This document shows, one piece after another, positions 270-17,469 of a stretch of DNA of 27,741 nucleotides; within the stretch, counting starts at the first letter, position 1, and each line of letters starts with the position of its first letter. The notes beneath the pieces were generated by a model. That model was not told the origin of the DNA, did not search any database, and saw only the letters and a list, made by a program, of their open reading frames with translations. The DNA is from a virus, in IMG/VR virus record IMGVR_UViG_3300030419_005944, positions 1 through 27,741 of that record. One strand, 5' to 3'. The translations under genes and the position numbers were made by a program.

Positions 270-291
270 CCGTCGTGTCTCGTTTTTACTA

Positions 292-298: not shown

Positions 299-305
299 TA
301 ACTAA

Positions 306-449: not shown

Positions 450-450
450 A

Positions 451-475: not shown

Positions 476-490
476 AGTGGGAATACGAAA

Positions 491-658
491 ATGCACGATT
501 TTTTAGACAATTTGCCGAATCATCAGTACCAAAAAATGCTGAGAGAAATCGCAAATGACAATATTGTACCTAAAAAAACGGATAAAAAGGTAACAAATGA
601 CCTTTATGAGAATAAAGAAGACAATGATTTTTATGAATTAAATGAAATAAGTTATTGA
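491..658 (+). CDS. 55-residue hypothetical charged protein
   Basis: The frame encodes MHDFLDNLPNHQYQKMLREI followed by a charged, probably disordered tail rich in Asn, Asp, Glu and Lys, ending NEISY. The likely start is ATG 491. An in-frame ATG at 461 exists but lies in the terminator loop region and would add ten residues (MSPFFSGNTK) from hairpin sequence, so it is less likely. The upstream GTGGGAA run (476-482) is a poor Shine-Dalgarno. The N-terminal 20-25 residues could form a short amphipathic helix. I do not recognise a family. The gene lies between a terminator and the baseplate operon, and ends about 40 bases before gp25. Coding status rests on the open frame, tight spacing and lack of any competing gene. 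Confidence 0.55.
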   Translation: MHDFLDNLPNHQYQKMLREIANDNIVPKKTDKKVTNDLYENKEDNDFYELNEISY

Positions 659-671
659 GGCAAAAATTGCT

Positions 672-679
672 GCTAAATA
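672..679 (+). promoter_or_regulatory. Late-promoter-like box upstream of gp25
   Basis: GCTAAATA shares the TAAATA core of the T4-type late promoter, six of eight positions. It ends 22 bases before the gp25 start codon, almost the same distance as the similar boxes before gp8 and gp13. A start site near 685 would give a leader of roughly 16 bases. The conserved placement is the main argument; the match itself is imperfect. Confidence 0.5.
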
Positions 680-701
680 AACATATATTTGCTGTATAAT
701 A

Positions 702-1103
702 GTGCCTGTCCAACGCATAAGTAGGTCATTTAAAGATATAAGTATGTCTTTTAAGGTTAATCCGTTAACTGATGACCTTATTGCGATTAAAAATCAGACT
801 GCTATAGCTCGCTCTCTTCGTAATCTAGTGCTTACTTCACCTGGAGAGCGATTTTTTAATAATAATTTAGGTTCAAGAGTAAATCAATTACTTTTTGAGA
901 ACATGGATGACCTTACTGCAGCATCCATAAAGAGTGAAATTGAAAATACTATCAAAAATTATGAACCAAGAGTTAGATTATTAAAAACAAAAGTGTCTCC
1001 TAATCCAGACTCCTATGAATTTGATGTAATTATTACCTATCAAATCGTTGGAATAGAAGCACAAGCACAACAGTTATCATTCGCATTACAGCCAACAAGA
1101 TAA
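702..1103 (+). CDS. 25: gp25-like baseplate wedge protein
   Basis: A 133-residue protein of the gpW/gp25 family, the usual size for T4 gp25 (132 residues). It is a wedge component in the inner baseplate near the sheath contact, with structural kinship to lysozyme-fold-like wedge proteins of contractile injection systems. Recognisable features are the N-terminus MPVQRISRSFKDIS typical of cyanomyovirus gp25, the segment TAIARSLRNLVLTSPGERFF containing the family's conserved RSLRNL/PGER region (residues about 31-50), and LGSRV followed by a helical half and a strand pair ending LSFALQPTR. The start is GTG at 702; an internal ATG at 744 would delete the conserved N-terminus. No Shine-Dalgarno is visible. 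The stop codon overlaps the gp6 start by one base, as TAATG, implying coupled translation of two wedge partners. Confidence 0.93.
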   Translation: MPVQRISRSFKDISMSFKVNPLTDDLIAIKNQTAIARSLRNLVLTSPGERFFNNNLGSRVNQLLFENMDDLTAASIKSEIENTIKNYEPRVRLLKTKVSPNPDSYEFDVIITYQIVGIEAQAQQLSFALQPTR

Positions 1104-3127
1104 TGCCTCTAGTTAATTTCGCAAATCTGGATTTTGACCAGATAAAAACCTCAATTAAAGATTATCTTCGATCTAATTCTAATTTTACGGATTATGATTT
1201 TGAAGGATCTAACCTGTCAACAATAATTGATGTCCTTGCATACAATACATATATCACCTCATACAATGCCAACATGGTATCAAATGAGGTTTTTATCGAT
1301 AGTGCAACATTAAGAGAGAATGTTGTATCACTCGCACGTAATATAGGTTATACTCCATATTCTAAAAGATCTGCACAAGCTAATATTACTTTCTTTATTG
1401 ATACTAGTGGTTATGCTGATAAACCTCAAACGATAACTTTAAATAAAGGATTGGTTGCATCCTCTAATAGTTTTGCAAATGAAAGTTATACTTTTGCAAT
1501 TTTAGATGATGTTACAGTTCCTGTATCAAATAATGAAGCAATTTTTAATAATATTGCCATTTATGAAGGAATTTACATTACACAAACATTTACTGTAAAT
1601 TCTTTTGACCCTGATCAAAGATTTATACTCGATAATAGTGGAATTGACCTTTCTACATTAAGAGTTGTGGTCAAACCATCAGAATCTTCGACTGTTACTA
1701 GAAAATATGTACAATCTGATAGTTTATTTGAAGTAAAAAGTGATTCTGCCATCTATTTTGTACAAGAAGTGGAGGGTGAAAGATATGAATTATTATTTGG
1801 AGACGGAATTTTCGGGAAAAAGTTAGATGCACCCAGTTTTATTGAAGTTTCTTATCTTGTAACTAATGGTGAACTTGCAAATGGTATTAATAATTTCAAT
1901 TTTAGTGGAAAATTAACATCTTCAAGGGATAATGTTACTATTAACAGTGGAATTTCTCTTGTTACCGCAGTTAACGCAGCTTCTTTAGGTCGAAGTATAG
2001 AATCAATTGAATCTATTAAGAAATATGCACCTAGAATTTACTCTTCTCAAAAAAGAGCTGTAACAACTGCTGATTTTGAAGCAATTATTCCTACATTATA
2101 TACTGAAACGGACTCAGTTTCTGCTTTTGGAGGCGAAACTTTAAATCCACCTCAATATGGAAAGACATTTGTAAGTATTAAACCCACAAATGGACCTTAT
2201 TTGTCGGATCAGATTAAAAGTAACCTAAAAAGAGAGATTAAAAAGTACTCTGTGTCTGGAATAGACGTAGAAATTACTGATTTGAAGTTTCTATATATTG
2301 AATTAAACATAACTGCGTATTATAATGCCAATTTAATCAGTTCAGGTGCTGATCTCATCAGTCTCATCGCTGAGAATCTAAGAAAATATGCTAATTCAGC
2401 AGAAATGAATAAATTTGGAGCGAGATTTAAGTATAGTAAGTTATTATGCGTCATTGATAATAGCAGCGATGCCATAACTTCTAATATTACGACAGTTGTT
2501 ATAAGAAGGGATCTCAGAGTATCGTTAAATAGTTTTGCGGAATATGAAATTTGTTTTGGAAACTGTATTTTTGTTAAGAATTGCGATGGATTTAATATTA
2601 AGTCATCTGGATTTAATGTAGATGGAATTGCTGGTACAGTATATCTTACAGATAAACCAGATGCTGGTTCTACTTCCACTGGGCAGATTATGTTGATACA
2701 ATTAGAAGCTTCTAATAAAGCAAAAATCATTAAGAAATCAATTGGAACCATTGATTATGAAAGAGGAGAAATTAAACTTTCACCGATTAATATAACTAAT
2801 ACAATTGTTAATAGAGGGTTCCCAGTTGTCGAAATCTCTGCTTCTCCATGTTCCAATGATGTATTAGGTCTTCATGACTTATACATTCAATTGGATCTTG
2901 AAAATACCCTTATTAATGCCATTCCTGATTCTGCTGATTTAGATTCAGCCGCCTCTAGTTATGCAAATGGTAGTTTAGTTCGAGGTCCAAAAGATATTCC
3001 AGGTTCTACAACTTGTGATACACCTGATAACACTGTATTCACCGCTAATGGTGCTACAGTTGCCTCTACAACCGCTTCCAGTGCTTCTACAACAGCAGCA
3101 ACTACTACAACCACATCTTCTTATTAA
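1103..3127 (+). CDS. 6: gp6-like baseplate wedge protein
   Basis: A 674-residue protein, close to the T4 gp6 length of 660. In T4, gp6 dimers join wedges into the continuous ring that holds the baseplate together, contacting gp7, gp25 and gp53. The N-terminus (FANLDFDQIKTSIKDYLRSN, then YDFEGSNLSTIIDVLAYNTY, residues about 5-50) is the hallmark of the family. The middle (about 200-420) carries a baseplate J-like region with the ELLFGDGIFGKKL strand and an RAVTTADFEAIIP segment. The C-terminal part has GTIDYERGEIKLSP, also typical. After about residue 615 the protein ends in a Ser/Thr/Ala-rich low-complexity tail (nt about 2945-3127) that T4 gp6 lacks. It overlaps gp25 by one base. The next gene starts nine bases after the stop. 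Recognition of the family is firm; the role of the tail is unknown. Confidence 0.93.
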   Translation: MPLVNFANLDFDQIKTSIKDYLRSNSNFTDYDFEGSNLSTIIDVLAYNTYITSYNANMVSNEVFIDSATLRENVVSLARNIGYTPYSKRSAQANITFFIDTSGYADKPQTITLNKGLVASSNSFANESYTFAILDDVTVPVSNNEAIFNNIAIYEGIYITQTFTVNSFDPDQRFILDNSGIDLSTLRVVVKPSESSTVTRKYVQSDSLFEVKSDSAIYFVQEVEGERYELLFGDGIFGKKLDAPSFIEVSYLVTNGELANGINNFNFSGKLTSSRDNVTINSGISLVTAVNAASLGRSIESIESIKKYAPRIYSSQKRAVTTADFEAIIPTLYTETDSVSAFGGETLNPPQYGKTFVSIKPTNGPYLSDQIKSNLKREIKKYSVSGIDVEITDLKFLYIELNITAYYNANLISSGADLISLIAENLRKYANSAEMNKFGARFKYSKLLCVIDNSSDAITSNITTVVIRRDLRVSLNSFAEYEICFGNCIFVKNCDGFNIKSSGFNVDGIAGTVYLTDKPDAGSTSTGQIMLIQLEASNKAKIIKKSIGTIDYERGEIKLSPINITNTIVNRGFPVVEISASPCSNDVLGLHDLYIQLDLENTLINAIPDSADLDSAASSYANGSLVRGPKDIPGSTTCDTPDNTVFTANGATVASTTASSASTTAATTTTTSSY

Positions 3128-3136
3128 TATCGCAAG

Positions 3137-6100
3137 ATGATATCTACAGATCTCCAAAGAGTACAGATTCAAAATATAGTTGAGAATCAACTCCCTTCTT
3201 TTGTGCAGGAGGATTTTCCTTTATTAGGGGAATTTCTCAAAGAGTATTATGTTTCGCAAGAATATCCAGGAGCTTCTGCTGATTTAATTCAAAATATAGA
3301 TGAATATTTAAAATTAGAGTCTTTAACTAATAATACGCAGGAGACAGAATTAGGAAGTGCGGTTGGATATCAAGATACTACAATTACAGTTACTTTTGAT
3401 CTTAATAAAAGTATTTTTGGAACTTATCATTTTCCCGATAGAGATGGTTTAATACAAATTGATAATGAAATAATTTTATATAAAGAAAAAACTAATACTA
3501 CATTTACAGGATGTGTAAGAGGGTTTAGTGGTGTTACTTCATATGGGATGCATGACGAATTAACCTTCTCACAGTCAGATGTTAATCCTCATGCCAAAGG
3601 AAGTAAGGTTACTAATTTAAGTGCTTTACTTTTTAATAAGTTTTTATTAAAACTTAAAAATCAAATTTCTCCAGGTTTTGAAGATAGGACTTTAGACGTT
3701 GACGTAAATCAAAGATTGTTTATTTCACGATCTAAAGATTTTTATGAGACGAAAGGTACAGATGAATCTTATAATATTCTTTTTGGAGCTCTCTACGGTG
3801 AAAAGGTAGATGTAATAAAACCTAGAGAATTTCTTTTTAGACCTTCTGATGCTGATTATAGAGTAACTAAAGATTTAGTTGTAGAATCTATTGAGGGTGA
3901 TCCACTTGATCTTTTAAACAGTACCCTATATCAAGATTCAGCACATTTTGGAGATCATTATTGTGTAGATAGAGCTTATGCTCCTGTTAGTGGAGTAGAA
4001 AAAATCTCTATTGGTAATTCTGATTTTTATAAGTTAAATCTTGATTATGGTTATGCAAGAGACGTTCCCCTTAAAGGAAGTGTTTATGGAGAATTTATAG
4101 TTCACCCCAATACAAAAGTAATAACAGAAGTAGCAGTAGGTTCAAGCGTAATAGATGTAGATTCTACTATAGGTTTTCCTGAGGCAGGAGAATTGTATGC
4201 AATCTATGGAACTGGTGCTACAGGAATATTAACTTATAGATCTAAATCCATAAATCAGTTCTTTGATGTTGGTTTAGCTAATACTACAACGGTTGGTATC
4301 ACCACTCTTATTAATTCAAAAGAAAATATACGATTAAATACAGATGTTTATGGATATGTGGGATTAGGAACTACTACTAAAGTTTCTATGAGGGTTACTG
4401 GAGTTTTAGCAGACTTAGAAATTCCAGATGATACTTATTATTTTGATAATAATGATACAGTTTCTATAAAGTCTTTAGGAATAACTACTTCAAGTCCTAA
4501 AACGGAAAATTGGTTTTACAATGTATCTACAAAATATGATGTAGAATCCATAACTTTAGTTGATGCATCTGATTTTACTTACACTTTGGTTACTTATGCT
4601 AAAAATAATTTTAGATTAGGTGATAAAGTTACTGTTATTGATTCTTCGGCAAATACCAAGGATTCTACAATAACTGAAGTTATAAGTGATTATAGTTTTT
4701 CTATCAAAGGTCAAGGAAATATTGTAGATGGAAAATATAGCGTAGAAAGAAAGATTTTAAGAGCTAAGGTAAATACCACATTATCGGATTATTCTTATAT
4801 TGATAATTATTTTGCTAATGTTCAAAATACTTATGTAAAATTTAATCAAGATCTTTTAGTAGCATCTTCATCTATTCCCAATTATGATAGTGCTCCTTTA
4901 AATTTCTATGATAGAAAAATTACTTTAAATGGAGAATATAGTGGAGCTGAATTTACAATTTTAGATGTAAATGATCATGGTTATTGGACAGGAGATGCAG
5001 TTTATTATAGTCCTTATACTATAGAGACTAAAGATTTTCTTGGAAATGTTACTAAGGTTGTTAGTAAATTTCCTGAGATGGAAGAAGGTGTTTACTTCGT
5101 TAATAGACTGAATAAAAATCAATTTCAACTTGCTACAAGTCCATCTAACATCTCTAATAATTCATTTATTTCCGTATCTGGTATTGTAACTTCTAATACT
5201 TTAGAATATCTTGATTTTCATGACAAAGATGTCGATCATCAACTTTTATTGAAAGAGATAAAAAATCCCATTAATGAAGATGGAGATTATGTTACTGAAC
5301 CAGGTAGTAGGACAGGTATATTGGTGAATGGGGTGGAAATTCTAAATTATAAATCAAATGAAGCAGTTTATTATGGACCTATTAAAGATATTGATATTGC
5401 AGCTGCAGGAAATGGTTATGATGTAATAAATCCTCCTATTTTACATGTATCAGATAATGTTGGAACAGGTGCAACTGGTATATGTGCTGTTGAAGGAGGT
5501 TTAGTAGCAATTAACATTGAAGATCCAGGTTTTGATTATGTTTCTCATCCAACTCTTACTATAAGTGGTGGTAATGGTGAAGGAGCAAGAGCGAGTGTTA
5601 ACACTAAAATGATTGAACACTCGGTTTCATTCAATGCTACTGCAGATTCTGCTCGTGTTGACCTAACTGACAGCACTATTGGTTTTTCTACCTATCATAA
5701 GTTTAGAAATGGTGAAAAAGTCATTTATAAGACATTTGGACAAACTGCAGTTAATGGAATTTCAACAGATGCAGTGTATTATGTTCATACTGTCGGTGTA
5801 TCCACTGTAAAACTTTATAAATCCGAAACTGAGGCAGTAAACGTTGGTTTAAATACTGTAATCTTATCTGGTTTTGGAGTTGGTGTTCATAACCTTCAAT
5901 CTGTTAATAAAAAGCAGATTATATCTAATATTATAGTTGATAATTCAGGTTCGGGATATCAAAATAAGAAGAGAACTATAATTTCTGCAACGGGAATTAA
6001 TACAGCTCTTAATCAAATCAATATTGATAAGCATGGATACAAATCTGGTGAAATTATCCAATATTCATATAATGTCGATCAAATTACAGGAATTAATTCC

Positions 6101-9100
6101 AATACGAATTATATTGTTACGGAAGTTGATGCGAATAACTTTAAATTATCTAGTGTAGGGGTTGGAACTACAACTAAGTTCCTATATTACGAAACAGAGC
6201 AATATATTGATTTTTCTGTTGCTGGTTTAGGAACTGGAACTCATACTTTTAACTATGAACCAATTACAGTAACTTTAAGTGGTGAAATAGGAGTTCTTAC
6301 TGCTACAGGGCAAGATTTTCAAGCAAAACTTCAGCCTTTGTTTAAAGGTTCTTTAGATTCTATACAGGTAACAAATGAGGGATCTGCATACGGATCTTCT
6401 GATATTATAAATTATGATCGTCAACCATTATTAACTCTTAATAGTGGATCTGGTGCGGAAATTACTCCAATTATTAATAACGGTAAAATAGTTGAAGTTC
6501 AAGTTGATAATCAGGGTGAAGGTTATAACGCACCTCCTAGATTAGTAATTTCTGCAAATCAAGGAAATTATGGAAAATTAGTTCCTATTGTTAATGATGG
6601 TAAAATCACCAGTGTAAGAATTGACAATGCTGGAATTGGATATACTGGTAATGTAGGAGTTGCTGTAACTACTGATGGTTCAAATGGACAATTAAGGGCA
6701 AGAATTAAAACTTGGAATATTAATTTGTTCCAAAAATATGTAGATATTATTTCAGATGATGATGGAATTTTAGATGAAGCTGAAAATTCCGAATTTGGGA
6801 TACAATATACTCATTTATATTCTCCTCGTAAATTGAGGGAATCTGTTTATGTGAGAGATCAAGATAATAATATTAAATATGGACTTCCTGATTTACAAAA
6901 GGTGGATGGTGAAGAAGTTTCTGCTTCTTTCCATTCTCCAATTATTGGATGGGCATATGATGGTAATCCCATTTATGGACCTTATGGATATAGTGAAAGA
7001 ACAGGTGGATCTATTAAAGCAATGGAATCTGGTTATAAAGCAGTAACTGCTTCTAATCGTCCTTCATTATCTATATTCCCTCAAGGATTTTTCATTGATG
7101 ATTTTGAATTTAATAATTCTGGAGATTTGGATGAACATAATGGTCGTTTTTGTATAACTCCTGATTATCCGCATGGAGTTTATGCTTATTTCTCAACTAT
7201 TAATCCAACTACGATTGAAAATTCAGGAGCTTTTAATAAGTATAGAAAACCTGAGTTTCCATATTTGATTGGAAATTCTTTCCATTCACAACCCAATACT
7301 TTTAATTATGATAATAGTATTAATCAAAAATCATATGATTTAAATACTACTTCATATTTTAGAAATACTACTCCATATTCTTTAACTGATGAGTATGCAT
7401 CTTATGATTTCTTATATCAACCAAATAAAGAAAGAGAGCAATTAATTGATATAAATTTGGTTTCTCATGGATCTATTGAGAAAGTGGGTATATTAACTGG
7501 TGGAAATAATTATAAAGTTAATGATACTGTTAATTTTGAACAAATTGGCGAAATTCAAAGAGCTAAAGGAAAGGTTTCTAAGGTTAGTGGAAAAGTAATT
7601 ACTAATATTAGTGTTGCAAGCAGCACTATATCCGATATAGAAATTGCTCCTTTTGATGTAAATGGACAATATATTGCTTTCTCTACTTCTCCTCATAACT
7701 TTACTAATTTAAATTTAGTTTCTTTATCTGGTTTTAATACTTCTACTAATAATTTGCAGGGAAGTTTTAATATTGGTGTAAAGACGGAAAGTGTCTTACT
7801 TGCAGGAGCTGCAACCACTATTGGAGCAACGGGAATAGTAACTTATTTTGGAATATCTGGATCACTCTCAAATGATCTTCTGTCAATTAGAGAGAATGAT
7901 ATTTTAGGAATTGGAACAGAAACAATAAAAGTTCTTCAAGTTGATAGAACCAATTCTAGATTAAGAATTCTTAGAGCTCAAGAAAGCACAATGGGAAGTG
8001 CTCATACTGCTGGATCAGTAATAACTGAAGATTCTAGAAAATTTACCTTTAACGCTTCTCCTGAAAATGAAGTAAAATTTGAATTAAATAAGGAAATTTA
8101 TTTTGAACCAAAAGAAGCATTGGGTATTGGAACTCTTGCAGGGGTGGGAATTGGAACTACTATTTTCTTCTCTAATCCTGGTGCAGGTATTACTCAAATC
8201 TTCATTCAAACAGAGGCGATTTATCTTCCCAATCATGATTTGAAAACTGGGGATGTTGTTAACTATAAAACAAATACTGGGGATCCTATAGGAGTTTCCA
8301 CTGATGGTATTACATTGTATAATCTTCCAACTGATGCTCCTTTGTATATTGGAAAAATATCTAATGATTTAGTTGGAATTCAAACATTCCAAGTTGGTAT
8401 TGGAAGTACTGGTACATTTGTAGGTATTGCAAGCACAACAGTTAATAGAGGATTATTAAGATTAACAGGAATTGGTACAGGAGTATACCATAGTTTTAAA
8501 ACAGTTAAGAATAACGTAGTTAATGCAGAAGCTCATAAGAATACAGTTACGGTAGCTACTGCTTCTACACATGGATTGAAATTTAATGATAATGTAACTA
8601 TTGATGTTCAACCAGGAATAGGTACAACAGTTACAGTTAAGTATAATGATTTTAATAGAAGAATAGTATTTAACCCCAAATCATTTGTCGCAGGTAATGT
8701 TGATACGACTGCCAATACCATTGAAATTACTAATCATGGATTAAACACTGGTGATAAGGTAATTCATACAGCAACAACTGCTTCAGGAGGATTAGAAGAT
8801 GAGAAAATGTATTATATCTTTAAATTCTCTACGAGTAAAGTTAAATTATGTTTGAGTAAATATGAATCTGAACAGTTTGAACCTGAATTTGTAAATATAA
8901 CTTCTGCATCTGCTGGAACTTTATCTCCTATCAATCCTTTAACTAATCTTTATAAGAACAACAGTGTAAGATTTGATTTATCAGATCCTTCTTTAGCCAG
9001 TTTTGTTGGAGTATCTTCTTATTCTGCTTTTGATCTTAATCTTTATACTGATAGTAAGTTTAATAATGAATTTTATTCATCACTTTCGAGTAATACTTTT

Positions 9101-12100
9101 GAAGTAACTAAAACAGGAAAAGTTGGTATTAGTACAAATGCTTCATTAACTTTAAGTGTAAGTAAGGATGTACCTGAAGTTTTATATTATAAATTTACAC
9201 CTATTAATGAATCTTTAATTACAGAGAGTAAAAAGGGAATTGTTATTGATGAGGAGATAGATGGATATAATCAAATTGGAATTAATAATAGTTTATATTC
9301 AGGAACTTTTGCAGTTGCTGGTATTGGAACTACTACAACATTTAGTTATAATTTAGTAACTCGTCCTGAGAGACCTTCTTATAGTGAATCAGAATCTTTA
9401 TTAGAATACTCTACAGATTCAAGCACTGCATATGGTGCGATTGTAGATATTGAAATGAAATATAAAGGAAGTGGATATTCTGAAATAGTTGGTGTATCTT
9501 CTATTAATAGTGGATTAGGAACTGATTCTATTCTAGAACCATCTAGTACCAGTATTGGTAAGATAATTTCTACTGACATTGAAAATATTGGATTTAATTA
9601 TTCAGCTGATAATACTGTAAGACCCGTTGCTAATCTTCCTGAAATATTACAAATTGAATCATTAACATCTTTTGAGTCAATTGGTATTAGTTCTGCTGGT
9701 AAGAATTATACTATAGCTCCTAAATTATTAGTTCTTGATGGACTTACAGGTAAGCAAGTAAAGGATGTTGATTTAGAATATCATATTGGTGAGCAGCAAG
9801 TTACTATTTTGAAGAATACAAAGGGAATGTATAATACTACTCCTACAATCATACCTACAGGTAATGTTAATGGAATTGGTATTAACACTATAACTTATGA
9901 TTCTAGTACTCAAGATGTAACTATTGGTTTAAATACTGCTTTTAGTGATTCATCTCCATTCAGTGTGGGTGATAAAGTTTTAATCGAGAATATAAGTGTT
10001 GGTGTAGGTACTACAGGATATGGATATAATTCTTCTCAATATGATTATTCATTATTTACTTTAACTGCAGTTAATGTTCCTCTGGGTGGTGGTGTAGGTT
10101 TTGTTACTTATAGTTTAGCAGGACTTCTTCCAGAAAATGAGTATCCTGGAAATCAAGATGTTTTGAATTCAGCTGGATCCATTATTCCCGAAAAATATTT
10201 TCCTCAGTTTGATATCAAACTTCAAAAAAATAATTTTATTGAAGGAGAACAAGTTACATCAGGAAATAAAGTTGGAAAGGTGGAAAGTTGGAATAAGAAA
10301 AGGGAGACTTTAAAAATATCCTCATCTGATGAATTTGATATAGGAGATTTAATCGAAGGTACAACTTCAAGAACTGAGGGAACTATAGAATCTAAAATTA
10401 ATTTTGAATCTGATATTAAGATTGATGCAGGGTCTGTAGTGAAGCAAGGATGGAAGAAAGACACAGGTTTCCTTAATGATACTCTTCAAAGATTACCTGA
10501 TAATTTCTATTATCAAAATTTCTCATATTCATTAAAATCCAAGGTTTCTATAGACAAATGGGATAATGCAGTAACTAATTTAAACCATCCTAGTGGATTC
10601 TTGAAATTTAGTGATTTAATAGTAGAAACTACAGATTCTAAAGATATAATTGGAAGAGATAGTGATTTAGTGGCCTTTATCGATGCTATTGGAGTGGTGG
10701 ATGTAAATTGCTATCCAAGTTTTGATTTGGTCACAGAAAATTCTTTAAGTATTAGTGATACTAAGTCATTATCAGATCAGATTTACTTTAATTCTAGAGT
10801 TTTGACGGATTATTATGAATCTGTTGGTAATAGAGTTTTGACTATTGATGATTTTAGCACATCCTTTAATAGTGATCCTAGAACAACTAGATTTTCTGTT
10901 GTTGATAATTTCCCTATTAAGCACAGAAGTAAAAAATTCTTTACTTTAGTAAAAGATAAAACTTTTACTGGTGAGAGACAAACGATGCTTGTTTCACTCT
11001 TACATAATGAGGGTGAAGGATATATGAACCAATATGGTAGGGTAGAGAGTGTAACCGATCTAGGAAGTTTTGATTTTGGAGTAAGTGGTAATAATGGACA
11101 ACTTCTTTTCTATCCTACAAAATATACTGTTAATAATTACAACGTCAGTGCTGTTAGTTTTGATATAATTGGTTTTGCTAATACTACAGGTATCGGATCA
11201 ACCACCCTTGGTAATTTTGTTAATATTAATTCTACTCAAACTGCCGTCCCTACAGGAACTGCTACTACAATTGTGGGAATTGCTTCCACATATAGAAGTT
11301 CAAAAGTTCTTGTTATGGTCAATGCAGATAATGGCAGAATGGAATATGATGAACTTAATATTATTCATAATGGAACAGACGTTGATTTACTTGAATATGG
11401 TCAAATAACAACTGATGATACGGTCAATGCTACAGGTGCTGGTCTGGGTACATATACTGCATCCATGGCTACGGGAGATATAATAGTACAGTTTGTTCCT
11501 CATACAGGTATTGCCGCTTCTGTAGATACTCTAAGAGTTTCCATAGCAGATACTGCTTCGGGTAGTACGGGAATTGGTACTCAATGGATTGGGAATGGAA
11601 ATCAAGATCTTGCATTTATTGATTCTTCTTATACTAAGATTAATGCATCAGGATCTCCTACAGAAAATTTAATTGCTCAGTATGATATTAACAATACTGT
11701 AGGTACGAATGATCATAATGGTGCTTATTATATTATTAGTGTAGAAGATATTACCAATGATCGTTATGAGATGTCTGAAGTAATTGTTTTAAATGATGCT
11801 TCACAAACTTATATAACTGAGTATGGAAATCTTGCCACTGTTGCAGGATTAGGAACTGTAGGAGCTGCGGTTTCTTCAACTTGGACAAATCTATATTACA
11901 CACCTAATCCTAGTATTGATGTTCAAGTTCGTGTTTTCCAGATGAGTCTACAGATTGCTGCGGAAAATGATGCCATTACTTCTGTTGATGAAATTAGTAT
12001 TGGTAATAATGCATCAATTAGTGGTGGATATGGTACATATGAAGGAACTGAAGTTGATGTTCTAAGGGCATTTAATTTAACTCATGATGGAAGAAATATA

Positions 12101-15100
12101 TTTTCAAGAGAGTTTGATGGTAGTGATTCTTCAGTGGTTAACCTTACCAAGAACAGTGTAACTATTCCAGAGCATTTCTTTGTTAGTGGTGAAGAACTTA
12201 CATATGCTTATGATGTGGATAGTGGAAGTGCTATAGGAATTGCAACTACAACTATTACGGGTATTGGAACTACTACTCTTCTTCCTTCTACCCTTTATGC
12301 TATTAAGGTTGATGAAACCACTCTTAAATTTGCTAAGACTGCTGAAGATGCTTTAAAGACTAATCCAAGTGAAATACATTTAACCTCGGTAGGTGTTGGA
12401 GCAGCCCACACCTTAACTGCACGTAATCAAAATACTAAATGCTTAATTGGAATTGATAATGCTATTCAACAACCAGTTGTTTCTACTGCTGTTACTACTG
12501 GAATAACATCTGCTATAGGAGTGGCAGATGTAGTATTAAAAGTATCGGGAATTACTTCAATCTTTGGTGGAGATCTACTTCAGATTGACGAAGAGATAGT
12601 GAAAGTTAATACAGTTGGATATGGTACGACTAATCACATACTAGTTGATCGTGCATGGATGGGAACAGGATTGGGCATTCATACAGAGAATTCTATAGTT
12701 ACTAAAGTTACTGGTGATTACAATATTGTTGATAATACCATTAACTTTGTTACTGCCCCTCAAGGACCAACTCCTGTAAGTTCTACTACTAATCCTCCTG
12801 ATGATAGGGATTGGGTAGGAATTACTACTTTCTCTACTTTCCAAGGAAGAACCTTTATGAGAAGGGCAGCTGCAGATAGTAGTAATAGACCATATGCAAC
12901 TAATCAAATTTTTGATGATATATCTGAAGGATTTACTGGAGTTGGTAAAACATTTACTTTAAAATCAGATGGTTCAAATGCCGTTGGATTCTCTACGAAT
13001 AATGGAGTTATTCTTATTAATGGAATTTTCCAAGGTCCAACTGGAGGATTGTCTACTTACCAAGATTATATTTTATCAGAGGGTTCGGGGATAACAACTA
13101 TCACCTTTACAGGAACTGCAAGTTCATTAGCAAGTGATCCTAATAATTCTAATATTCCTGTGGGTGGTATAGTTGCTTCTGTTGGTTCTACTGGTGGTTT
13201 GGGATATCAACCACTTGTAGCTGCGGGTGGAACTGCAATTGTTTCTAGTGCAGGAACTGTTTCCTCTATTAGTATTGGTAATAGTGGATCAGGGTATAGA
13301 GTAGGAGTTCAAACTGTGGTGAATGTTGCGATTCAAACAGGAACTAACATTCAACCACAGTTAATTGGTATCGGTACTGCTGCAATCACTGATGGTCATA
13401 TCACTGGAATAGCAATTACAAACAATCAAGTAATTTATGCACCTAGAGCAATCTATGATGTTGGTTATACCTCTACAACTGGTATCACAACGATCACTAC
13501 AACGACAGCCCACGGTCTTGCAATAGGGCAAGAAGTCAAGTTAGCAGGAATTGCATTCACATGCGATTACCTCCCTGCTGTGGGCGTTCAGAGTGCCATA
13601 TATGATAATACTACAGGTATTATGACAGTTACCACATCTAGTGCTCATGGACTCTCTGTAACGGGTAAAGCAAGTGATGTAGTTCTTTCTGGATTAGCAT
13701 TTACTTGTGCATTAGACGATGGTGCTGCTACTCATTCATATCCAAGAACAAGTGATCCTGCATATGGTGGTACACCTGTAACAGGAGTTGCTAGTGTTAC
13801 TCAATTCACTATAAATGTTGGTACTTCAACTGTTCCTACTTTCTACGCATCAGGTGGTACAATACAACCTGCTTTGATAGCACCTAGAGATATAAATTTC
13901 TCCGATAGTGGTATTGATCCTGCTGCTAATGGATCTACGATTTTAACTGTCGGTAATACTACTTCATTTACTATTAATAGTGGAGTTTCTACCAGAGCAC
14001 ACTTCTACTCAAGAGGAGGAACAGTTAATAGACAAATGGATGTTATTATTGATGAACCTCGTGGATATACAAATCTTCCTTTGATTTATAGTCCTTCTGG
14101 AACAACAGGAATTGGAACACAAGCTACGGTTGATATAGTTGTGGGTCAAGGATCAAGTATTATTAATTTTGAAATCAAAAATACTGGTTATGGATATCGA
14201 GATAATCAAGTCTTGACTGTTCCTAAGATGGGAACCACAGGTATTCCTACAGATCCATCTAAAACTTTTGAAGAATTCCAAATTACTATACAGGATGTTT
14301 CTACTGATTCATTTGCGGGTTGGACATTTGGTCAACTTGAAGTTCTTGATAAGATTCAAAGTGAATTTAATGGATCTAAGAAAATATTTACTTTGAAGAA
14401 AGATGGTGCTCCAATTACGATTAGAGCAAGAGAGGGATCTAATATCGATGTTCAATCTACTATTCTCGTCTTCATTAATAATACTCTTCAAGTACCTGGT
14501 GACGGTTATACTCTCACTAATGGAAGTATATTAACATTTGCTGAGGCTCCTAAAGGACGTGAAACAGATGGATCATTTGATGGCGACACTTGTAAGATTC
14601 TCTTCTATAAGGGAAGTGGAGATATTGATGTTACATTTACTGAAGTATTGGATACGGTTAAAAAAGGAGATACTCTTCAAATTATGGGTGATGGTGATCT
14701 TTGTGCTAATTCTATAGAAGAAGATAAGAGACTAGTGAAAGAAGTTATAGCAACTGATATTGTTGATACAAACGGTTATACTGGTGTTGGTATTAATGGA
14801 GATCCTGATTGTAAGAGAACAGTTACATGGTGTAAGCAGGGTATTGATAAGATTATTAATGGACAAATCATTAGTAAGAGTCGTGAAGAGTTAGAGGCTT
14901 TAATTAATCCTACTACATTCATTATTCAATCTGTGGGTGTAGGATCTACTGTTATATTTGTAGAGAGTGTAAGAACATTCTTCGATCCTGATAATGAAGA
15001 TCAAACCACTGCTAAGACTCAAAAGATTTCTATAACCTCTCAAGATAATATTGTTGGGGCCTCGGCAACTGCAGTCGTATCTGCTGCTGGTACTATTTCT

Positions 15101-15880
15101 GCTGTTACAGTGAGTATGGGTGGAACAGGATATACTGCTGCTCCTAATGTAATTATTGGTACTCCTGTTGGTTTAGGAACGACAACAAGAGCATCTGCTA
15201 CGTCCACTCTTACAGGTGATGCAGTTTCTGCCATTACAGTTACATCTCCTGGTACAGGATACACTAATACTTCTGTACCAGAAGTTTTGATTGAAGTTCC
15301 TAATGTAACAAGAGAAATAAATGATTCTTCTACATATGAAGGTGACTTTGGAGAAATTGTAGGAGTTGGTACAACGTGTGTAGGTGTCGCATCTACAGGC
15401 ATTGTATTTGATATGTACATCCCTACAAATTCCTTCTTAAGGGATACTGATATTGTCGGAACTGCGGTTACAATTAGTGGTATTCAAACTGGTTACTATT
15501 TTACGGTTTCTGGTAGTAATATTGGAAACGGAGTAACATCTATTTACCAAAATAGATCAGTTTTAGGAATAGGAACTACTTTCTTAGATAATGTATATGA
15601 AGTTGCTGCAGTTTCGGTTGCACAAACTTCCGTACCTGGTATTGCCAATACATATGTGGCTAGAGTAACGACTAGTGTTTCTAGTTTCAATTCTTTATCA
15701 GGAGTGGGTGTAAGTGAATTGTTTGGAAACTTCTCGTGGGGAAGAATAACATTAGGTAGTAGACCTAGCACTGCTGTTACATCCTTTACTGCATACACGC
15801 AAAACGGATTTACAGGAATCTCTACTTCGGCAGTTGTCAGTAGGGTTACTCCATTAAAGTCTAAAAATTATTCTGCTTAA
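3137..15880 (+). CDS. Giant 4247-residue modular baseplate/virion structural protein in the gp7 position
   Basis: One uninterrupted frame of 4247 codons between gp6 and gp8, the slot occupied by wedge protein gp7 in T4 (about 1030 residues). I see no convincing sequence match to T4 gp7, so gp7 is a positional guess. The first 60 residues (RVQIQNIVENQLPSFVQEDF, then LGEFLKEYY) look helical and recur in other marine T4-like phages as far as I recall; this may be the baseplate anchor. The rest is beta-rich and built from repeated modules: about 15 GxGY repeats from residue 756 to 4040, about seven HGxxxGDxV units, three EEI...R...GT units near residues 103, 1580 and 3144, two FTL...ING...PG units near 3250 and 3740, and a YHYH-like domain at about 1255-1390. 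GIGTT and VGVGTT strings are scattered throughout. No signal peptide or membrane segment is seen. The start ATG 3137 has no Shine-Dalgarno. It is probably a long peripheral spoke or fibre of the baseplate. Confidence 0.85.
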   Translation: MISTDLQRVQIQNIVENQLPSFVQEDFPLLGEFLKEYYVSQEYPGASADLIQNIDEYLKLESLTNNTQETELGSAVGYQDTTITVTFDLNKSIFGTYHFPDRDGLIQIDNEIILYKEKTNTTFTGCVRGFSGVTSYGMHDELTFSQSDVNPHAKGSKVTNLSALLFNKFLLKLKNQISPGFEDRTLDVDVNQRLFISRSKDFYETKGTDESYNILFGALYGEKVDVIKPREFLFRPSDADYRVTKDLVVESIEGDPLDLLNSTLYQDSAHFGDHYCVDRAYAPVSGVEKISIGNSDFYKLNLDYGYARDVPLKGSVYGEFIVHPNTKVITEVAVGSSVIDVDSTIGFPEAGELYAIYGTGATGILTYRSKSINQFFDVGLANTTTVGITTLINSKENIRLNTDVYGYVGLGTTTKVSMRVTGVLADLEIPDDTYYFDNNDTVSIKSLGITTSSPKTENWFYNVSTKYDVESITLVDASDFTYTLVTYAKNNFRLGDKVTVIDSSANTKDSTITEVISDYSFSIKGQGNIVDGKYSVERKILRAKVNTTLSDYSYIDNYFANVQNTYVKFNQDLLVASSSIPNYDSAPLNFYDRKITLNGEYSGAEFTILDVNDHGYWTGDAVYYSPYTIETKDFLGNVTKVVSKFPEMEEGVYFVNRLNKNQFQLATSPSNISNNSFISVSGIVTSNTLEYLDFHDKDVDHQLLLKEIKNPINEDGDYVTEPGSRTGILVNGVEILNYKSNEAVYYGPIKDIDIAAAGNGYDVINPPILHVSDNVGTGATGICAVEGGLVAINIEDPGFDYVSHPTLTISGGNGEGARASVNTKMIEHSVSFNATADSARVDLTDSTIGFSTYHKFRNGEKVIYKTFGQTAVNGISTDAVYYVHTVGVSTVKLYKSETEAVNVGLNTVILSGFGVGVHNLQSVNKKQIISNIIVDNSGSGYQNKKRTIISATGINTALNQINIDKHGYKSGEIIQYSYNVDQITGINSNTNYIVTEVDANNFKLSSVGVGTTTKFLYYETEQYIDFSVAGLGTGTHTFNYEPITVTLSGEIGVLTATGQDFQAKLQPLFKGSLDSIQVTNEGSAYGSSDIINYDRQPLLTLNSGSGAEITPIINNGKIVEVQVDNQGEGYNAPPRLVISANQGNYGKLVPIVNDGKITSVRIDNAGIGYTGNVGVAVTTDGSNGQLRARIKTWNINLFQKYVDIISDDDGILDEAENSEFGIQYTHLYSPRKLRESVYVRDQDNNIKYGLPDLQKVDGEEVSASFHSPIIGWAYDGNPIYGPYGYSERTGGSIKAMESGYKAVTASNRPSLSIFPQGFFIDDFEFNNSGDLDEHNGRFCITPDYPHGVYAYFSTINPTTIENSGAFNKYRKPEFPYLIGNSFHSQPNTFNYDNSINQKSYDLNTTSYFRNTTPYSLTDEYASYDFLYQPNKEREQLIDINLVSHGSIEKVGILTGGNNYKVNDTVNFEQIGEIQRAKGKVSKVSGKVITNISVASSTISDIEIAPFDVNGQYIAFSTSPHNFTNLNLVSLSGFNTSTNNLQGSFNIGVKTESVLLAGAATTIGATGIVTYFGISGSLSNDLLSIRENDILGIGTETIKVLQVDRTNSRLRILRAQESTMGSAHTAGSVITEDSRKFTFNASPENEVKFELNKEIYFEPKEALGIGTLAGVGIGTTIFFSNPGAGITQIFIQTEAIYLPNHDLKTGDVVNYKTNTGDPIGVSTDGITLYNLPTDAPLYIGKISNDLVGIQTFQVGIGSTGTFVGIASTTVNRGLLRLTGIGTGVYHSFKTVKNNVVNAEAHKNTVTVATASTHGLKFNDNVTIDVQPGIGTTVTVKYNDFNRRIVFNPKSFVAGNVDTTANTIEITNHGLNTGDKVIHTATTASGGLEDEKMYYIFKFSTSKVKLCLSKYESEQFEPEFVNITSASAGTLSPINPLTNLYKNNSVRFDLSDPSLASFVGVSSYSAFDLNLYTDSKFNNEFYSSLSSNTFEVTKTGKVGISTNASLTLSVSKDVPEVLYYKFTPINESLITESKKGIVIDEEIDGYNQIGINNSLYSGTFAVAGIGTTTTFSYNLVTRPERPSYSESESLLEYSTDSSTAYGAIVDIEMKYKGSGYSEIVGVSSINSGLGTDSILEPSSTSIGKIISTDIENIGFNYSADNTVRPVANLPEILQIESLTSFESIGISSAGKNYTIAPKLLVLDGLTGKQVKDVDLEYHIGEQQVTILKNTKGMYNTTPTIIPTGNVNGIGINTITYDSSTQDVTIGLNTAFSDSSPFSVGDKVLIENISVGVGTTGYGYNSSQYDYSLFTLTAVNVPLGGGVGFVTYSLAGLLPENEYPGNQDVLNSAGSIIPEKYFPQFDIKLQKNNFIEGEQVTSGNKVGKVESWNKKRETLKISSSDEFDIGDLIEGTTSRTEGTIESKINFESDIKIDAGSVVKQGWKKDTGFLNDTLQRLPDNFYYQNFSYSLKSKVSIDKWDNAVTNLNHPSGFLKFSDLIVETTDSKDIIGRDSDLVAFIDAIGVVDVNCYPSFDLVTENSLSISDTKSLSDQIYFNSRVLTDYYESVGNRVLTIDDFSTSFNSDPRTTRFSVVDNFPIKHRSKKFFTLVKDKTFTGERQTMLVSLLHNEGEGYMNQYGRVESVTDLGSFDFGVSGNNGQLLFYPTKYTVNNYNVSAVSFDIIGFANTTGIGSTTLGNFVNINSTQTAVPTGTATTIVGIASTYRSSKVLVMVNADNGRMEYDELNIIHNGTDVDLLEYGQITTDDTVNATGAGLGTYTASMATGDIIVQFVPHTGIAASVDTLRVSIADTASGSTGIGTQWIGNGNQDLAFIDSSYTKINASGSPTENLIAQYDINNTVGTNDHNGAYYIISVEDITNDRYEMSEVIVLNDASQTYITEYGNLATVAGLGTVGAAVSSTWTNLYYTPNPSIDVQVRVFQMSLQIAAENDAITSVDEISIGNNASISGGYGTYEGTEVDVLRAFNLTHDGRNIFSREFDGSDSSVVNLTKNSVTIPEHFFVSGEELTYAYDVDSGSAIGIATTTITGIGTTTLLPSTLYAIKVDETTLKFAKTAEDALKTNPSEIHLTSVGVGAAHTLTARNQNTKCLIGIDNAIQQPVVSTAVTTGITSAIGVADVVLKVSGITSIFGGDLLQIDEEIVKVNTVGYGTTNHILVDRAWMGTGLGIHTENSIVTKVTGDYNIVDNTINFVTAPQGPTPVSSTTNPPDDRDWVGITTFSTFQGRTFMRRAAADSSNRPYATNQIFDDISEGFTGVGKTFTLKSDGSNAVGFSTNNGVILINGIFQGPTGGLSTYQDYILSEGSGITTITFTGTASSLASDPNNSNIPVGGIVASVGSTGGLGYQPLVAAGGTAIVSSAGTVSSISIGNSGSGYRVGVQTVVNVAIQTGTNIQPQLIGIGTAAITDGHITGIAITNNQVIYAPRAIYDVGYTSTTGITTITTTTAHGLAIGQEVKLAGIAFTCDYLPAVGVQSAIYDNTTGIMTVTTSSAHGLSVTGKASDVVLSGLAFTCALDDGAATHSYPRTSDPAYGGTPVTGVASVTQFTINVGTSTVPTFYASGGTIQPALIAPRDINFSDSGIDPAANGSTILTVGNTTSFTINSGVSTRAHFYSRGGTVNRQMDVIIDEPRGYTNLPLIYSPSGTTGIGTQATVDIVVGQGSSIINFEIKNTGYGYRDNQVLTVPKMGTTGIPTDPSKTFEEFQITIQDVSTDSFAGWTFGQLEVLDKIQSEFNGSKKIFTLKKDGAPITIRAREGSNIDVQSTILVFINNTLQVPGDGYTLTNGSILTFAEAPKGRETDGSFDGDTCKILFYKGSGDIDVTFTEVLDTVKKGDTLQIMGDGDLCANSIEEDKRLVKEVIATDIVDTNGYTGVGINGDPDCKRTVTWCKQGIDKIINGQIISKSREELEALINPTTFIIQSVGVGSTVIFVESVRTFFDPDNEDQTTAKTQKISITSQDNIVGASATAVVSAAGTISAVTVSMGGTGYTAAPNVIIGTPVGLGTTTRASATSTLTGDAVSAITVTSPGTGYTNTSVPEVLIEVPNVTREINDSSTYEGDFGEIVGVGTTCVGVASTGIVFDMYIPTNSFLRDTDIVGTAVTISGIQTGYYFTVSGSNIGNGVTSIYQNRSVLGIGTTFLDNVYEVAAVSVAQTSVPGIANTYVARVTTSVSSFNSLSGVGVSELFGNFSWGRITLGSRPSTAVTSFTAYTQNGFTGISTSAVVSRVTPLKSKNYSA
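3440..3580 (+). other. EEI-type module, copy 1 (giant protein residues about 103-147)
   Basis: The segment reads LIQIDNEIILY, a short spacer, then FTGCVRGFSG and a histidine-containing turn. Phage tail proteins often carry this pattern: an acidic pair before Ile, a strand, an Arg-Gly turn and a closing strand. Related segments occur at 7874-8043, 12566-12720 and, in the DUF4815 protein, 23746-23920. Confidence 0.5.
4960..6250 (+). repeat. HGxxxGDxV protein repeats, first cluster
   Basis: Three divergent copies of a module of about 65-80 residues are encoded here, at residues about 611 (DHGYWTGDAVYY), 851 (YHKFRNGEKVIY) and 964 (KHGYKSGEIIQY). Each opens with His-Gly or similar, a Gly-Asp or Gly-Glu turn and a Val/Ile-x-Tyr strand. 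Each continues with a YYV or NYIV strand and a xxFKL or TVKLY strand, and copies two and three end in a GVGVHN- or GTGTHT-like turn. The nucleotide sequences have diverged, so these are ancient rather than recent copies. Confidence 0.6.
5400..6690 (+). repeat. GxGY protein repeats, first cluster in the giant protein
   Basis: Six copies of a short beta repeat are encoded, with cores at residues about 756 (GNGYDVINPP), 796 (PGFDYVSHP), 937 (SGSGYQNKK), 1079 (EGSAYGSSD), 1125 (QGEGYNAPP) and 1165 (AGIGYTGNV). The usual unit is a strand ending in N, x-G-x-G-Y, a Pro-containing turn, a strand such as LVIS or LTIS, then a Gly/Ala-rich turn. They are interleaved with the HGxxxGDxV units. Confidence 0.65.
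6900..7300 (+). other. YHYH-like domain inside the giant protein (residues about 1255-1390)
   Basis: The order of motifs matches the YHYH family: WAYDGNPIYGPYGY, an insert of about 50 residues, DLDEHNGRFCITPDYPHG, then VYAYF where the family usually has YHYH, and FPYLIGNSF where the family ends in a Pro-Tyr-x-x-Gly-Cys segment. The name-giving motif is degenerate, with Ala and Phe replacing both histidines. The family's biochemical activity is not known to me. Here it lies within a repeat-rich virion protein, so a structural or surface-binding role is inferred. Confidence 0.7.
7490..7550 (+). repeat. Isolated GxGY-type repeat (giant protein residue about 1455)
   Basis: TGGNNYKVNDTVNFEQIG is a diverged copy of the GxGY repeat, standing alone just after the YHYH-like domain. 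The Tyr and the following turn-strand pattern are kept while the second Gly is replaced by Asn. Confidence 0.45.
8220..8930 (+). repeat. HGxxxGDxV protein repeats, second cluster
   Basis: Three units are encoded at residues about 1697 (NHDLKTGDVVNY), 1809 (THGLKFNDNVTI) and 1865 (NHGLNTGDKVIH). The first and third show the full turn of Gly-Asp followed by a Val strand, and the third carries MYYIFKFSTSKVKL, the same strand order as the first cluster. A further unit occurs alone near nt 12160-12420 (EHFFVSGEELTY). Confidence 0.55.
9460..9740 (+). repeat. GxGY protein repeats, second cluster in the giant protein
   Basis: Three copies are encoded at residues about 2110 (KGSGYSEIV), 2150 (IGFNYSADN) and 2186 (AGKNYTIAPKLLVL). 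The third is closest to the consensus, with Pro after Tyr-Thr-x-Ala and the downstream LLVL strand. Confidence 0.55.
12920..13110 (+). other. FTL-ING module, copy 1 (giant protein residues about 3262-3325)
   Basis: The segment runs from GVGKTFTLKSDG through GVILINGIFQGP to YQDYILSEG and an ITFTGTA strand. It resembles segments I associate with tail structural proteins of marine phages: F-T-L, a short loop, V-x-I-N-G, Q-x-P, Y-x-L and an I-x-F strand. A second copy is encoded at about 14350-14570. Confidence 0.5.
13280..13330 (+). repeat. GxGY protein repeat (giant protein residue about 3382)
   Basis: NSGSGYRVGVQTVVNVAI is an isolated, well-formed GxGY unit preceded by the strand VSSISIG, as in the clusters further left. 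Confidence 0.5.
13460..14040 (+). repeat. Partly duplicated AHGL-AFTC / GGT segment of the giant protein
   Basis: Two successive segments share ordered motifs: TTGITTITTTTAHGL then LAGIAFTC (residues about 3450-3475), and TTGIMTVTTSSAHGL then LSGLAFTC (about 3490-3535). Each is tied to a following FTINVG or FTINSG strand and an FYxxGGT turn, the latter occurring at about 3567-3583 and 3618-3635. The first part is clearly richer in GC than the surroundings: 29 of 60 bases for 13501-13560 and 27 of 60 for 13561-13620 by hand count, against about 18 of 60 in a typical line such as 6001-6060. Confidence 0.55.
14050..14230 (+). repeat. GxGY protein repeats, third pair in the giant protein
   Basis: Two units are encoded at residues about 3640 (PRGYTNLPLIYS) and 3682 (TGYGYRDNQVLTV). 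Between them lies a TTGIGTQATV turn-strand like the one that separates units elsewhere. Confidence 0.5.
14350..14570 (+). other. FTL-ING module, copy 2 (giant protein residues about 3740-3812)
   Basis: FNGSKKIFTLKKDG, then ILVFINNTLQVPGDGYTL and ILTFAEAPKG follow the same order as the copy at 12920-13110, with ING changed to INN. It is followed by a segment of predicted mixed structure containing DTLQIMGDGDLC. Confidence 0.5.
15110..15300 (+). repeat. GxGY protein repeats, last pair in the giant protein
   Basis: Two close copies are encoded: MGGTGYTAAPNVIIGTP (residue about 3994) and SPGTGYTNTSVPEVLIEVP (about 4037). They are separated by GLGTTTRASATSTL and a strand AVSAITVT. These are the nearest to the consensus seen in gp14 at the right end of the window. 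Confidence 0.6.
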
Positions 15881-15915: not shown

Positions 15916-17469
15916 ATGGCTGCAATTATAACTGATCAACTTCGTATATTAAATACTAAAGATTTTGTCGCCAGTGTAGCATCAACCACTAATTCATTTT
16001 ATACATGGATTGGGTTACCAAATGCTACACAGGTTGATTCTGATTGGAATACGACTCCACCTGATCCACGGGATAGTTTTAATCAGGAGAATGAATATTG
16101 GGATACGATGATAGCCTTGAAAAAGGTAGATACAACCGATATAAAGCAAGTTGTTAAAAAGAATACATGGGCATCAGGTATTACCTATGACATGTATAGA
16201 AATGATATTACCGCAGAAAATCCATCTAAACCTTCTAATGCAACTACTTTATATGCTGCAAATTATTTTGTAGTAAATTCAGACTATAAAGTTTATATTT
16301 GCCTACAGAATGGAACTGATCCTGATAATCCTGAAGGAAAGGCATCACTTGATGAACCAACATTTACTGATTTAGAACCAAGAGCAGCAGGAAGCAGTGG
16401 TGATGGATATATTTGGAAGTATTTGTATACTATTAAACCAGGTGATATTGTAAAATTTGACTCTACTAACTTTATGCCTGTTCCTGCAGATTGGGCAACT
16501 AATAGTGCTGATGCTGCAGTAAGAGATAATGCTGCTACTAGTGGTCAACTTAAGATTGTTACTATTACTAATAGAGGTGTTGGATTAGGAACGGCGGATC
16601 AAACTTACACAAAAGTTCCTATTAATGGTGATGGTCAAGGTGCGGAAGCAACTGTGGTCATTAATAGTTCTTCAAAAGTTGAATCGGTTACTGTTTCTAA
16701 AGGGGGTTCGGGTTATAGTTTTGGAACATTAGATTTGGCAGAAGGTGGAGTTCCTACAGGTACAAGTGCAGCTGCCTTTAATGTTATCATTCCTCCTCAG
16801 GGTGGACATGGTGCTGACATTTATAGAGAATTGGGTGCTAAAAATGCTTTAGTTTATGCACGAATTGAAAATGATACTGAAAACCCTGATTTTATAACAG
16901 GGCAAGAATTTGCTCGTGTGGGAATTGTTCAAAATCCAGAAGCATATGGTTCTACTGAAAATTTAGAATTAGACAAAGCAAGTGCTGTATATGCTTTAAG
17001 ATTGACTGGTGCTGGGGCTAGTACTGCTACATTCACTGCTGATGATTTTATTACTCAAACTATAGGGGTTGGATCAACTGCTGTAGGAAGAGTTATAAAT
17101 TATGATCAAACTACTCAGGTTTTAAAATATTGGCAGGATAGATCTACTGCTGGTTTTAATACTAACGGTAGTGCGAACACTGATCCTACTTATGGATTCC
17201 AAATGGATAGATTTACTTCTAATATTAAATCTGGTGGATCCTTTAATATTGTGGGAGGATCTGAAACTGTATCTATTAACACTTCCTTTACAGGTCTTTC
17301 TACTGTAATAAATAGTAAGACGTATTATCTTGGACAGTCATTTACCGCAGGTTTGGCTAATCCAGAAGTTAAAAAATATTCTGGAGATATTATTTACGTC
17401 GATAATAGACCGTCGATCACTAGATCAACAAACCAAAAAGAAGATATCAAAGTCATTTTGCAATTCTAA
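15916..17469 (+). CDS. 8: gp8-like baseplate wedge protein
   Basis: A 517-residue protein. T4 gp8 has 334 residues and forms a dimer that binds gp6, gp7 and gp10 on the wedge. The N-terminus MAAIITDQLRILNTKDFV, followed by NSFYTWIGLPN and a DPRDSFN segment, is characteristic of cyanomyovirus gp8. The segment DGYIWKYLYTIKPGDIVKF (residues about 163-181) is a second strong family marker. The excess length over T4 lies mainly in an insertion that carries two GxGY-like units (residues about 220 and 263, SKGGSGYSFGTL) and in a longer C-terminal half. The gene ends with IKVILQF, typical of the family. Its start, ATG 15916, lies after TATCGCAAA rather than a Shine-Dalgarno. A late promoter box lies just upstream, so gp8 and the genes after it may form a separate transcript. 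Confidence 0.92.
   Translation: MAAIITDQLRILNTKDFVASVASTTNSFYTWIGLPNATQVDSDWNTTPPDPRDSFNQENEYWDTMIALKKVDTTDIKQVVKKNTWASGITYDMYRNDITAENPSKPSNATTLYAANYFVVNSDYKVYICLQNGTDPDNPEGKASLDEPTFTDLEPRAAGSSGDGYIWKYLYTIKPGDIVKFDSTNFMPVPADWATNSADAAVRDNAATSGQLKIVTITNRGVGLGTADQTYTKVPINGDGQGAEATVVINSSSKVESVTVSKGGSGYSFGTLDLAEGGVPTGTSAAAFNVIIPPQGGHGADIYRELGAKNALVYARIENDTENPDFITGQEFARVGIVQNPEAYGSTENLELDKASAVYALRLTGAGASTATFTADDFITQTIGVGSTAVGRVINYDQTTQVLKYWQDRSTAGFNTNGSANTDPTYGFQMDRFTSNIKSGGSFNIVGGSETVSINTSFTGLSTVINSKTYYLGQSFTAGLANPEVKKYSGDIIYVDNRPSITRSTNQKEDIKVILQF
16570..16770 (+). repeat. GxGY-type insertion in gp8
   Basis: Residues about 220-285 of gp8 encode NRGVGLG, DGQGAEATVVI, a strand KVESVTVS and KGGSGYSFGTLDL. 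This is the same repeat pattern as in the giant protein and gp14. It falls just after the conserved YIWKYLY region and accounts for part of the extra length compared with T4 gp8. Confidence 0.55.

Follow-up and report, generated by a model that had tools for sequence, protein, structure and literature searches.

The window analysed here is a 27.7-kb virus fragment (27,741 nucleotides). It carries, in this order, gp25, gp6, gp7, gp8, a DUF4815 protein, small structural genes and the two head-tail connector proteins (counterparts of T4 gp13 and gp14), and Pfam and PHROG matches show the wedge-type order gp25/gp6-gp7-gp8 (Table 1). The gp7 ORF has an ATG start, 4247 codons and no internal stop and takes up 45.9% of the window, in line with an original prediction of one uninterrupted frame covering nearly half of it. 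At the composition of the window, such a frame would arise by chance with a log10 probability of about -149. For an assembly or gene-fusion artefact we found no point in support, and we count it as already refuted, given that independent contigs and isolates agree in architecture and length and that there is codon-level constraint along the whole frame. Searches for promoters and terminators within the frame gave no signal above shuffles, and a match to RnfG in NCBIfam was judged to be chance (14.5 bits vs a cut-off of 205).

At the left edge of the window, the end of an upstream gene (3-269) containing CGEDVSFCLDAIDAGYKIWCDPRIRVGH looks like a glycosyltransferase tail and has no Pfam match. 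Towards the right edge, a 216-aa ORF (25104-25754) contains an E-type module (residues 135-178) and matches PHROG 3304 (L-shaped tail fibre assembly). S-SCSM1 (L084, 13011-14364) has a 2OG-Fe(II) oxygenase gene and an extra wedge-labelled gene between gp7 and gp8, and the window has neither.

Table 1. Genes of the window and features of the gp7 chain (window coordinates; aa, residues of gp7).
Feature	Position	Strand	Basis or remark
gp25, sheath initiator / wedge protein	702..1103	+	PF04965 E 8e-15
gp6, wedge protein	1103..3127	+	PF21379 E 9e-16; PHROG 219 E 6e-190
gp7, baseplate wedge subunit	3137..15880	+	4247 aa, single frame
N-terminal helical segment (aa 8-64)	3158..3328	+	PF23786 profile 9-57 at 3170-3322, E 0.002
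Beta insert within core domain, E-type module (aa 66-157)	3332..3607	+	
gp7 homology segment (aa 184-322)	3686..4102	+	DFYxTKGTxxSYxxLFxxLYxExV and subsequent beta part; PF23786 176-219
B module (aa 611-679)	4967..5173	+	iterated profiles
A module, GxGY type (aa 746-817)	5372..5587	+	iterated profiles
B module (aa 841-911)	5657..5869	+	iterated profiles
A module (aa 906-952)	5852..5992	+	iterated profiles
B module (aa 954-1026)	5996..6214	+	iterated profiles
A modules, overlapping series (aa 1032-1183)	6230..6685	+	iterated profiles
YHYH domain (PF14240, aa 1261-1361)	6917..7219	+	without YHxH motif
A module (aa 1445-1496)	7469..7624	+	iterated profiles
E module (aa 1583-1627)	7883..8017	+	iterated profiles
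B module (aa 1690-1766)	8204..8434	+	iterated profiles
B module (aa 1855-1923)	8699..8905	+	iterated profiles
A module (aa 2099-2162)	9431..9622	+	iterated profiles
B module (aa 3001-3084)	12137..12388	+	iterated profiles
F module (aa 3070-3141)	12344..12559	+	iterated profiles
E module (aa 3136-3186)	12542..12694	+	iterated profiles
F module (aa 3259-3329)	12911..13123	+	iterated profiles
A module, left flank of cassette site (aa 3373-3430)	13253..13426	+	iterated profiles
C-module cassette, ~194 aa (aa ~3441-3636)	13457..14044	+	whole-unit presence/absence among relatives
A module, right flank of cassette site (aa 3637-3702)	14045..14242	+	iterated profiles
F module (aa 3737-3818)	14345..14590	+	iterated profiles
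A modules (aa 3962-4046)	15020..15274	+	iterated profiles
gp8, wedge protein	15916..17469	+	PF09215 E 3e-13; PHROG 438
DUF4815 / PHROG 358 protein, 2470 aa	17476-24888		VrlC-named position in S-SM2 and S-SCSM1 records

The N-terminal core of gp7

The sequence identifies the ORF as gp7, a wedge subunit, from a T4-like phage of the Kyanoviridae type. PHROG 2885 ('baseplate wedge subunit') covers the protein end to end (7-4243 vs 8-4178 of 4179 positions, 3633 bits). Whole-protein phmmer against the PDB returned T4-type gp7s only, aligning residues 189-227 with T4 gp7 721-759 (E 0.009), and a profile built from 41 relatives again matched T4-type gp7s only (E 3.4e-6). By hhalign against nine T4-type gp7s, residues 192-322 aligned with T4 gp7 724-822 (97.8%, E 1.2e-12), compared to 0.1-0.3% for column-shuffled controls. 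PF23786 has two colinear matches, at residues ~12-62 and 184-231, below the curated cut-off. Pfam scans of the protein yielded only YHYH and Baseplate_wedge, plus a sub-threshold Gp18_dom_I; Gp7_5th and Gp7_6th (domains V and VI) and the helical models of T4 gp7 had no match, and no trimerisation or fibre domain (collagen, chaperone, fibre tip) was recognised.

The placement in the gp7 slot that had been predicted is borne out by the PHROG 2885 match, the gp25-gp6-gp7-gp8 order and the core homology. The baseplate anchor suspected at the N-terminus is also found, as the gp7 core lies in the N-terminal ~320 residues; profile search led from residues ~190-322 to the T4 gp7 family and raised no competing family. 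The short helical N-terminus described at the outset corresponds to two predicted helical stretches, 11-63 and 161-220, both of low AlphaFold confidence (pLDDT 43-60 for 11-63). The N-terminal helices (aa 8-64) are likely the helix-turn-helix of the (gp6)2-gp7 core bundle, a role that we infer for helices 11-63 because their confidence is low and the core-bundle helices alone gave no significant match to the T4 helices.

T4 gp7 has been said to be absent from cyano- and pelagimyophages, with VrlC in its stead (PMC7029224), and one record labels the gp7-slot protein 'VrlC', both of which would fit a slot protein that is not gp7. We consider this reading very unlikely: the slot protein carries the gp7 core by phmmer, hhalign and profile search, and the VrlC position is occupied by a second protein, the DUF4815 protein, which is where the S-SM2 and S-SCSM1 records put the name. 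As the protein at the VrlC position coexists with gp7, VrlC does not simply replace gp7, and the core result bears on the published statement of absence. In some records, the VrlC name sits on the gp7-slot protein.

Beta modules and a cassette site

The ~3,900 residues after the core consist in large part of small beta modules. Iterated profiles identified types A (GxGY, about 11 matches), B (HGxxxGD, 6), C (HGLxFTC, 2-3), E (IDxExxxY, 4) and F (NGxxQxP, 3), and with the single YHYH domain found by Pfam there are at least six types, where at least five had been noted. The order of A and B modules is largely preserved in the closest isolates. E modules recur in two other proteins of the window, that of the 216-aa ORF and the one with DUF4815. 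A modules also occur in gp8 (16543-16719) and at the end of gp14, a neck protein (27195-27719), so that one module type is common to wedge and neck proteins of one phage.

AlphaFold models covering residues 1-700 and 1050-1780 had low confidence (mean pLDDT 69 and 64.5, pTM 0.37 and 0.35, respectively) and are therefore unfit to describe the shape of the arm; within the second model, prediction is best for the A series at residues 1032-1183 (pLDDT 78-89). In Foldseek searches of the PDB, T4 gp7 was not retrieved with confidence (best probability 0.28-0.35). The 1-700 model gave nothing under E 0.001, with a T4-type gp7-sized chain ranked first (probability 0.28) and V-ATPase barrels matching a ~90-residue part. 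The single match of the 1050-1780 model, a JBD30 baseplate protein (E 5e-4), was set aside for its 26.6 A rmsd. In a viral library, Foldseek matched mostly cyanophage and other phage structural proteins, the best being Bellamy gp7, and profiles of residues 1050-1780 and 3060-4247 matched no solved structure.

The YHYH domain scores 84.2 bits (curated cut-off 25) and is present in 35 of 35 aligned relatives and in the S-PM2 gp7-slot protein. YHYH has been proposed as a Zn-dependent hydrolase (PMC7824862). YHxH near HSPIIG was found in none of 81 gp7 frames; in the window protein, T1225 and L1227 occupy the positions of the two YHxH histidines and I1211 that of the upstream GH histidine, while H1266 and D1275 are kept. 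The 57 relatives from genome contigs used for this comparison were chosen for YHxH, which leaves the upstream GH (57/57) as the one independent observation. With the histidine motif of the cellular relatives missing, the domain in gp7 is probably not a metal hydrolase; a Zn-dependent enzyme of the proposed type is unlikely, and the domain probably serves a structural or binding role. Phage gp7-like YHYH proteins with GxGY modules also appear in contigs from bacterial and archaeal MAGs (L150, L151, L152 and similar), which are probably viral contigs in bins.

One position in the chain gains or loses a 194-residue block of tail-fibre-type modules. The interval at residues 3430-3641 is 211 residues long in window-type phages and exactly 17 in Bellamy, S-SCSM1 and several contigs, the difference being one 194-residue C-module block immediately ahead of a GxGY-type turn. 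L037 (occupied) and L044 (empty) each share 70-76% identity with the window in the flanking sequence. By a quick flank tree, some of whose branches are long, the C block changed at least three times, with three changes forced by well-supported branches. At the corresponding site P-SSM2 has 11 C-module matches (836-1086 residues depending on the alignment), P-TIM68 has ~107 residues of other content with no C module, and S-SM2 has no C module; P-HM1 gp7 contains 7 C-module matches vs 2-3 in the window protein. Cassette homologues occur in 219 phage records, many of them labelled tail fibre. In S-SCSM1 and S-CAM9 the gp7 site is empty, yet the block is present in a (long) tail-fibre gene. A foreign origin judged by GC was rejected, since GC is elevated across the whole C-terminal third and gives no evidence of recent import. 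A small search of the open-licence literature found no earlier description of this site.

Little is known of the parts with which marine T4-like cyanophages bind their receptors, and several fibre and baseplate genes of T4 (g10, g11, g12, g34, g35 and g37) have no recognised counterpart in them (PMC2984593). If the cassette site carries host-contact modules, it would be a defined place to seek host-range determinants, and occupied/empty pairs such as L037 and L044 make such a role testable.

Relatives, virions and a proposed arm

We found gp7 homologues in 470 phage records. Lengths among isolates are 3048 aa (S-PM2), 3884 (S-CAM9), 4067 (Bellamy), 4120 (S-SCSM1), 4156 (S-SM2), 4225 (ACG-2014f), 4307 (P-TIM68), 4446 (P-HM1), 5195 (P-SSM2) and, by annotated coordinates, 7312 (P-SSM4); complete frames in environmental contigs are mostly 4243-4256 aa, and several isolates span 3884-5195 aa. 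The slot is annotated as gp7, 'baseplate wedge initiator' or 'subunit', in the P-SSM2, P-SSM4 and S-SM2 records. On these sequences, a giant gp7 is the rule among the T4-like cyanophages examined, and the length of the window protein is ordinary within its group. The original prediction was right that the T4 protein (1032 aa) is about four times shorter and that beta modules extend a wedge component, here a gp7 core with a module string downstream, but its view of the construction as unusual, formed by comparison with T4 alone, is not supported, gp7s of 3048-7312 aa being the rule in the isolates examined. The nearest annotated isolates (Bellamy, S-SM2, S-B43/S-B05 and P-TIM68) share 39-44% identity over the first ~2950 residues and S-SCSM1 shares 35%; for environmental contigs, identity over the first 500 residues rises to 93-95%, and one complete contig stands at 89% in its main alignment. 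The window gp7 is thus a new sequence of a known family.

Omega is 0.02-0.18 in 13 segments along the whole protein, which indicates purifying selection throughout and that no part is decaying; the N-terminal helices have the lowest value (0.023). Among close relatives, conservation over the last ~1,000 residues (83-94%) is no lower than in the middle (77-92%). A hypervariable tip was looked for in these relatives and not found (omega 0.10-0.15 over the last ~1,000 residues), and no segment has the omega pattern of a diversifying tip.

Absence from virions had been named as counting against a wedge extension, and homologues are present there. The 4120-aa S-SCSM1 protein is annotated '(virion protein)', that phage's virion proteome having been measured (PMC9602691), and the S-CREM2 gp7-slot protein was detected in virions with 91 unique peptides at 27% coverage (PMC10665884). 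S-PM2d081, the S-PM2 gp7-slot protein ('hypothetical' to the authors), acquired an early non-synonymous mutation in Synechococcus coexistence (PMC9910659). This mutation, in one gene among 18, hints at a role in infection.

T4-type assembly uses a prohead protease, and the large size of gp7 would suit post-assembly processing that separates the anchor from the beta part, the latter being released or assembled on its own as one protein or several. We regard such processing as improbable: Pfam scans of gp7 show no protease or self-cleavage domain, the frame is whole in most complete relatives, and a homologue is detected as a virion protein, although its peptides are compatible with cutting.

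We consider it likely that gp7 is a one-chain wedge subunit with a C-terminal beta arm projecting from the baseplate. Going by T4, XM1 and AlgoCIS, the core would pack with two gp6 copies, which would give one chain per wedge and six per virion. On each wedge, the module string would form a long, outward-reaching monomeric arm where T4 gp7 has its N-terminal peripheral domains, and may offer a docking surface to neighbouring wedge and fibre proteins and, near its C-terminus, to the host, with a possible role in host contact. By analogy to XM1 and AlgoCIS, the arm would point outward; the gp7-like part of AlgoCIS lies on the lateral surface and has been called a hotspot for re-engineering (PMC8894135).

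The same anchor could instead bear a scaffold or spacer that broadens the baseplate and supports gp8, the VrlC/DUF4815 protein and fibres without ever touching the host, changes in module copy number being tolerated changes in spacing; only the function of the arm differs. We give this a substantial chance, somewhat short of even. It would agree with uniform purifying selection and no variable tip, with A modules common to gp8 and gp14, which are not adhesins by family, with the loss of the YHYH histidine motif, and with XM1 gp17, which binds spikes without itself being the adhesin (PMC10457771). However, the modules that build the variable cassette are otherwise those of tail-fibre genes, and the cassette comes and goes whole at a single site. 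A more doubtful proposal, which we hold only tentatively, is that these cyanophages use gp7 as an adhesin arm, a single chain anchored in the wedge, whose specificity changes as tail-fibre cassettes are traded at one fixed position; over evolution, host-contact modules would then pass between wedge and fibres. What we add here to the giant gp7s already known is the homology of the core, growth in the C-terminal direction, a cassette that can be swapped and a YHYH site that has degenerated.

Compared to T4 gp7, the window protein has in common the core motif, the beta domain that follows it and the neighbours gp6 and gp8. In T4, about 640 residues precede the helical core at 643-689, with domains V and VI after it, whereas in window gp7 few residues come before the helices, the core domain holds one inserted beta module (66-157) and ~3,900 residues follow; window gp7 also lacks the N-terminal peripheral domains of the T4 lineage and domain VI. 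These peripheral domains do not define the wider family, as the orthologue in Vibrio phage XM1, gp17, has only 242 aa. In gp17 the core-bundle helices come first and spikes are bound via an insert and a C-terminal tail (PMC10457771). Going by the published description of gp17, the two proteins would both open with core-bundle helices, and each carries an insert and is extended at its C-terminus, by tens of residues in XM1 and by thousands here. The insert at residues 66-157 lies in a place comparable to the spike-binding insert of gp17 (PMC10457771), and the cyanophage arm would thus sit where a simple phage attaches its spikes.

The giant cyanophage gp7s of Bellamy (gp111), S-SM2 (gp7), P-TIM68 and S-SCSM1 (S-SCSM1_15) have the same place and anchor as window gp7, the same B-module order and nearly the same A order, at 36-45% identity in the main alignments. 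Window gp7 differs in its 194-aa C cassette, the site being empty in Bellamy and S-SCSM1 and without a C module in S-SM2 and P-TIM68. P-SSM2 and P-HM1 share the anchor and C modules with the window at about 27-29% identity. P-SSM4 gp7 lies in the gp7 slot with its anchor in two pieces, matching residues 10-121 and 123-588 of the window protein; unlike the window protein, it has an A-module array between them and no B modules in the part examined. This anchor-splitting array is seen in P-SSM4 (AY940168.2, 57144-79082; L088 from 1645).
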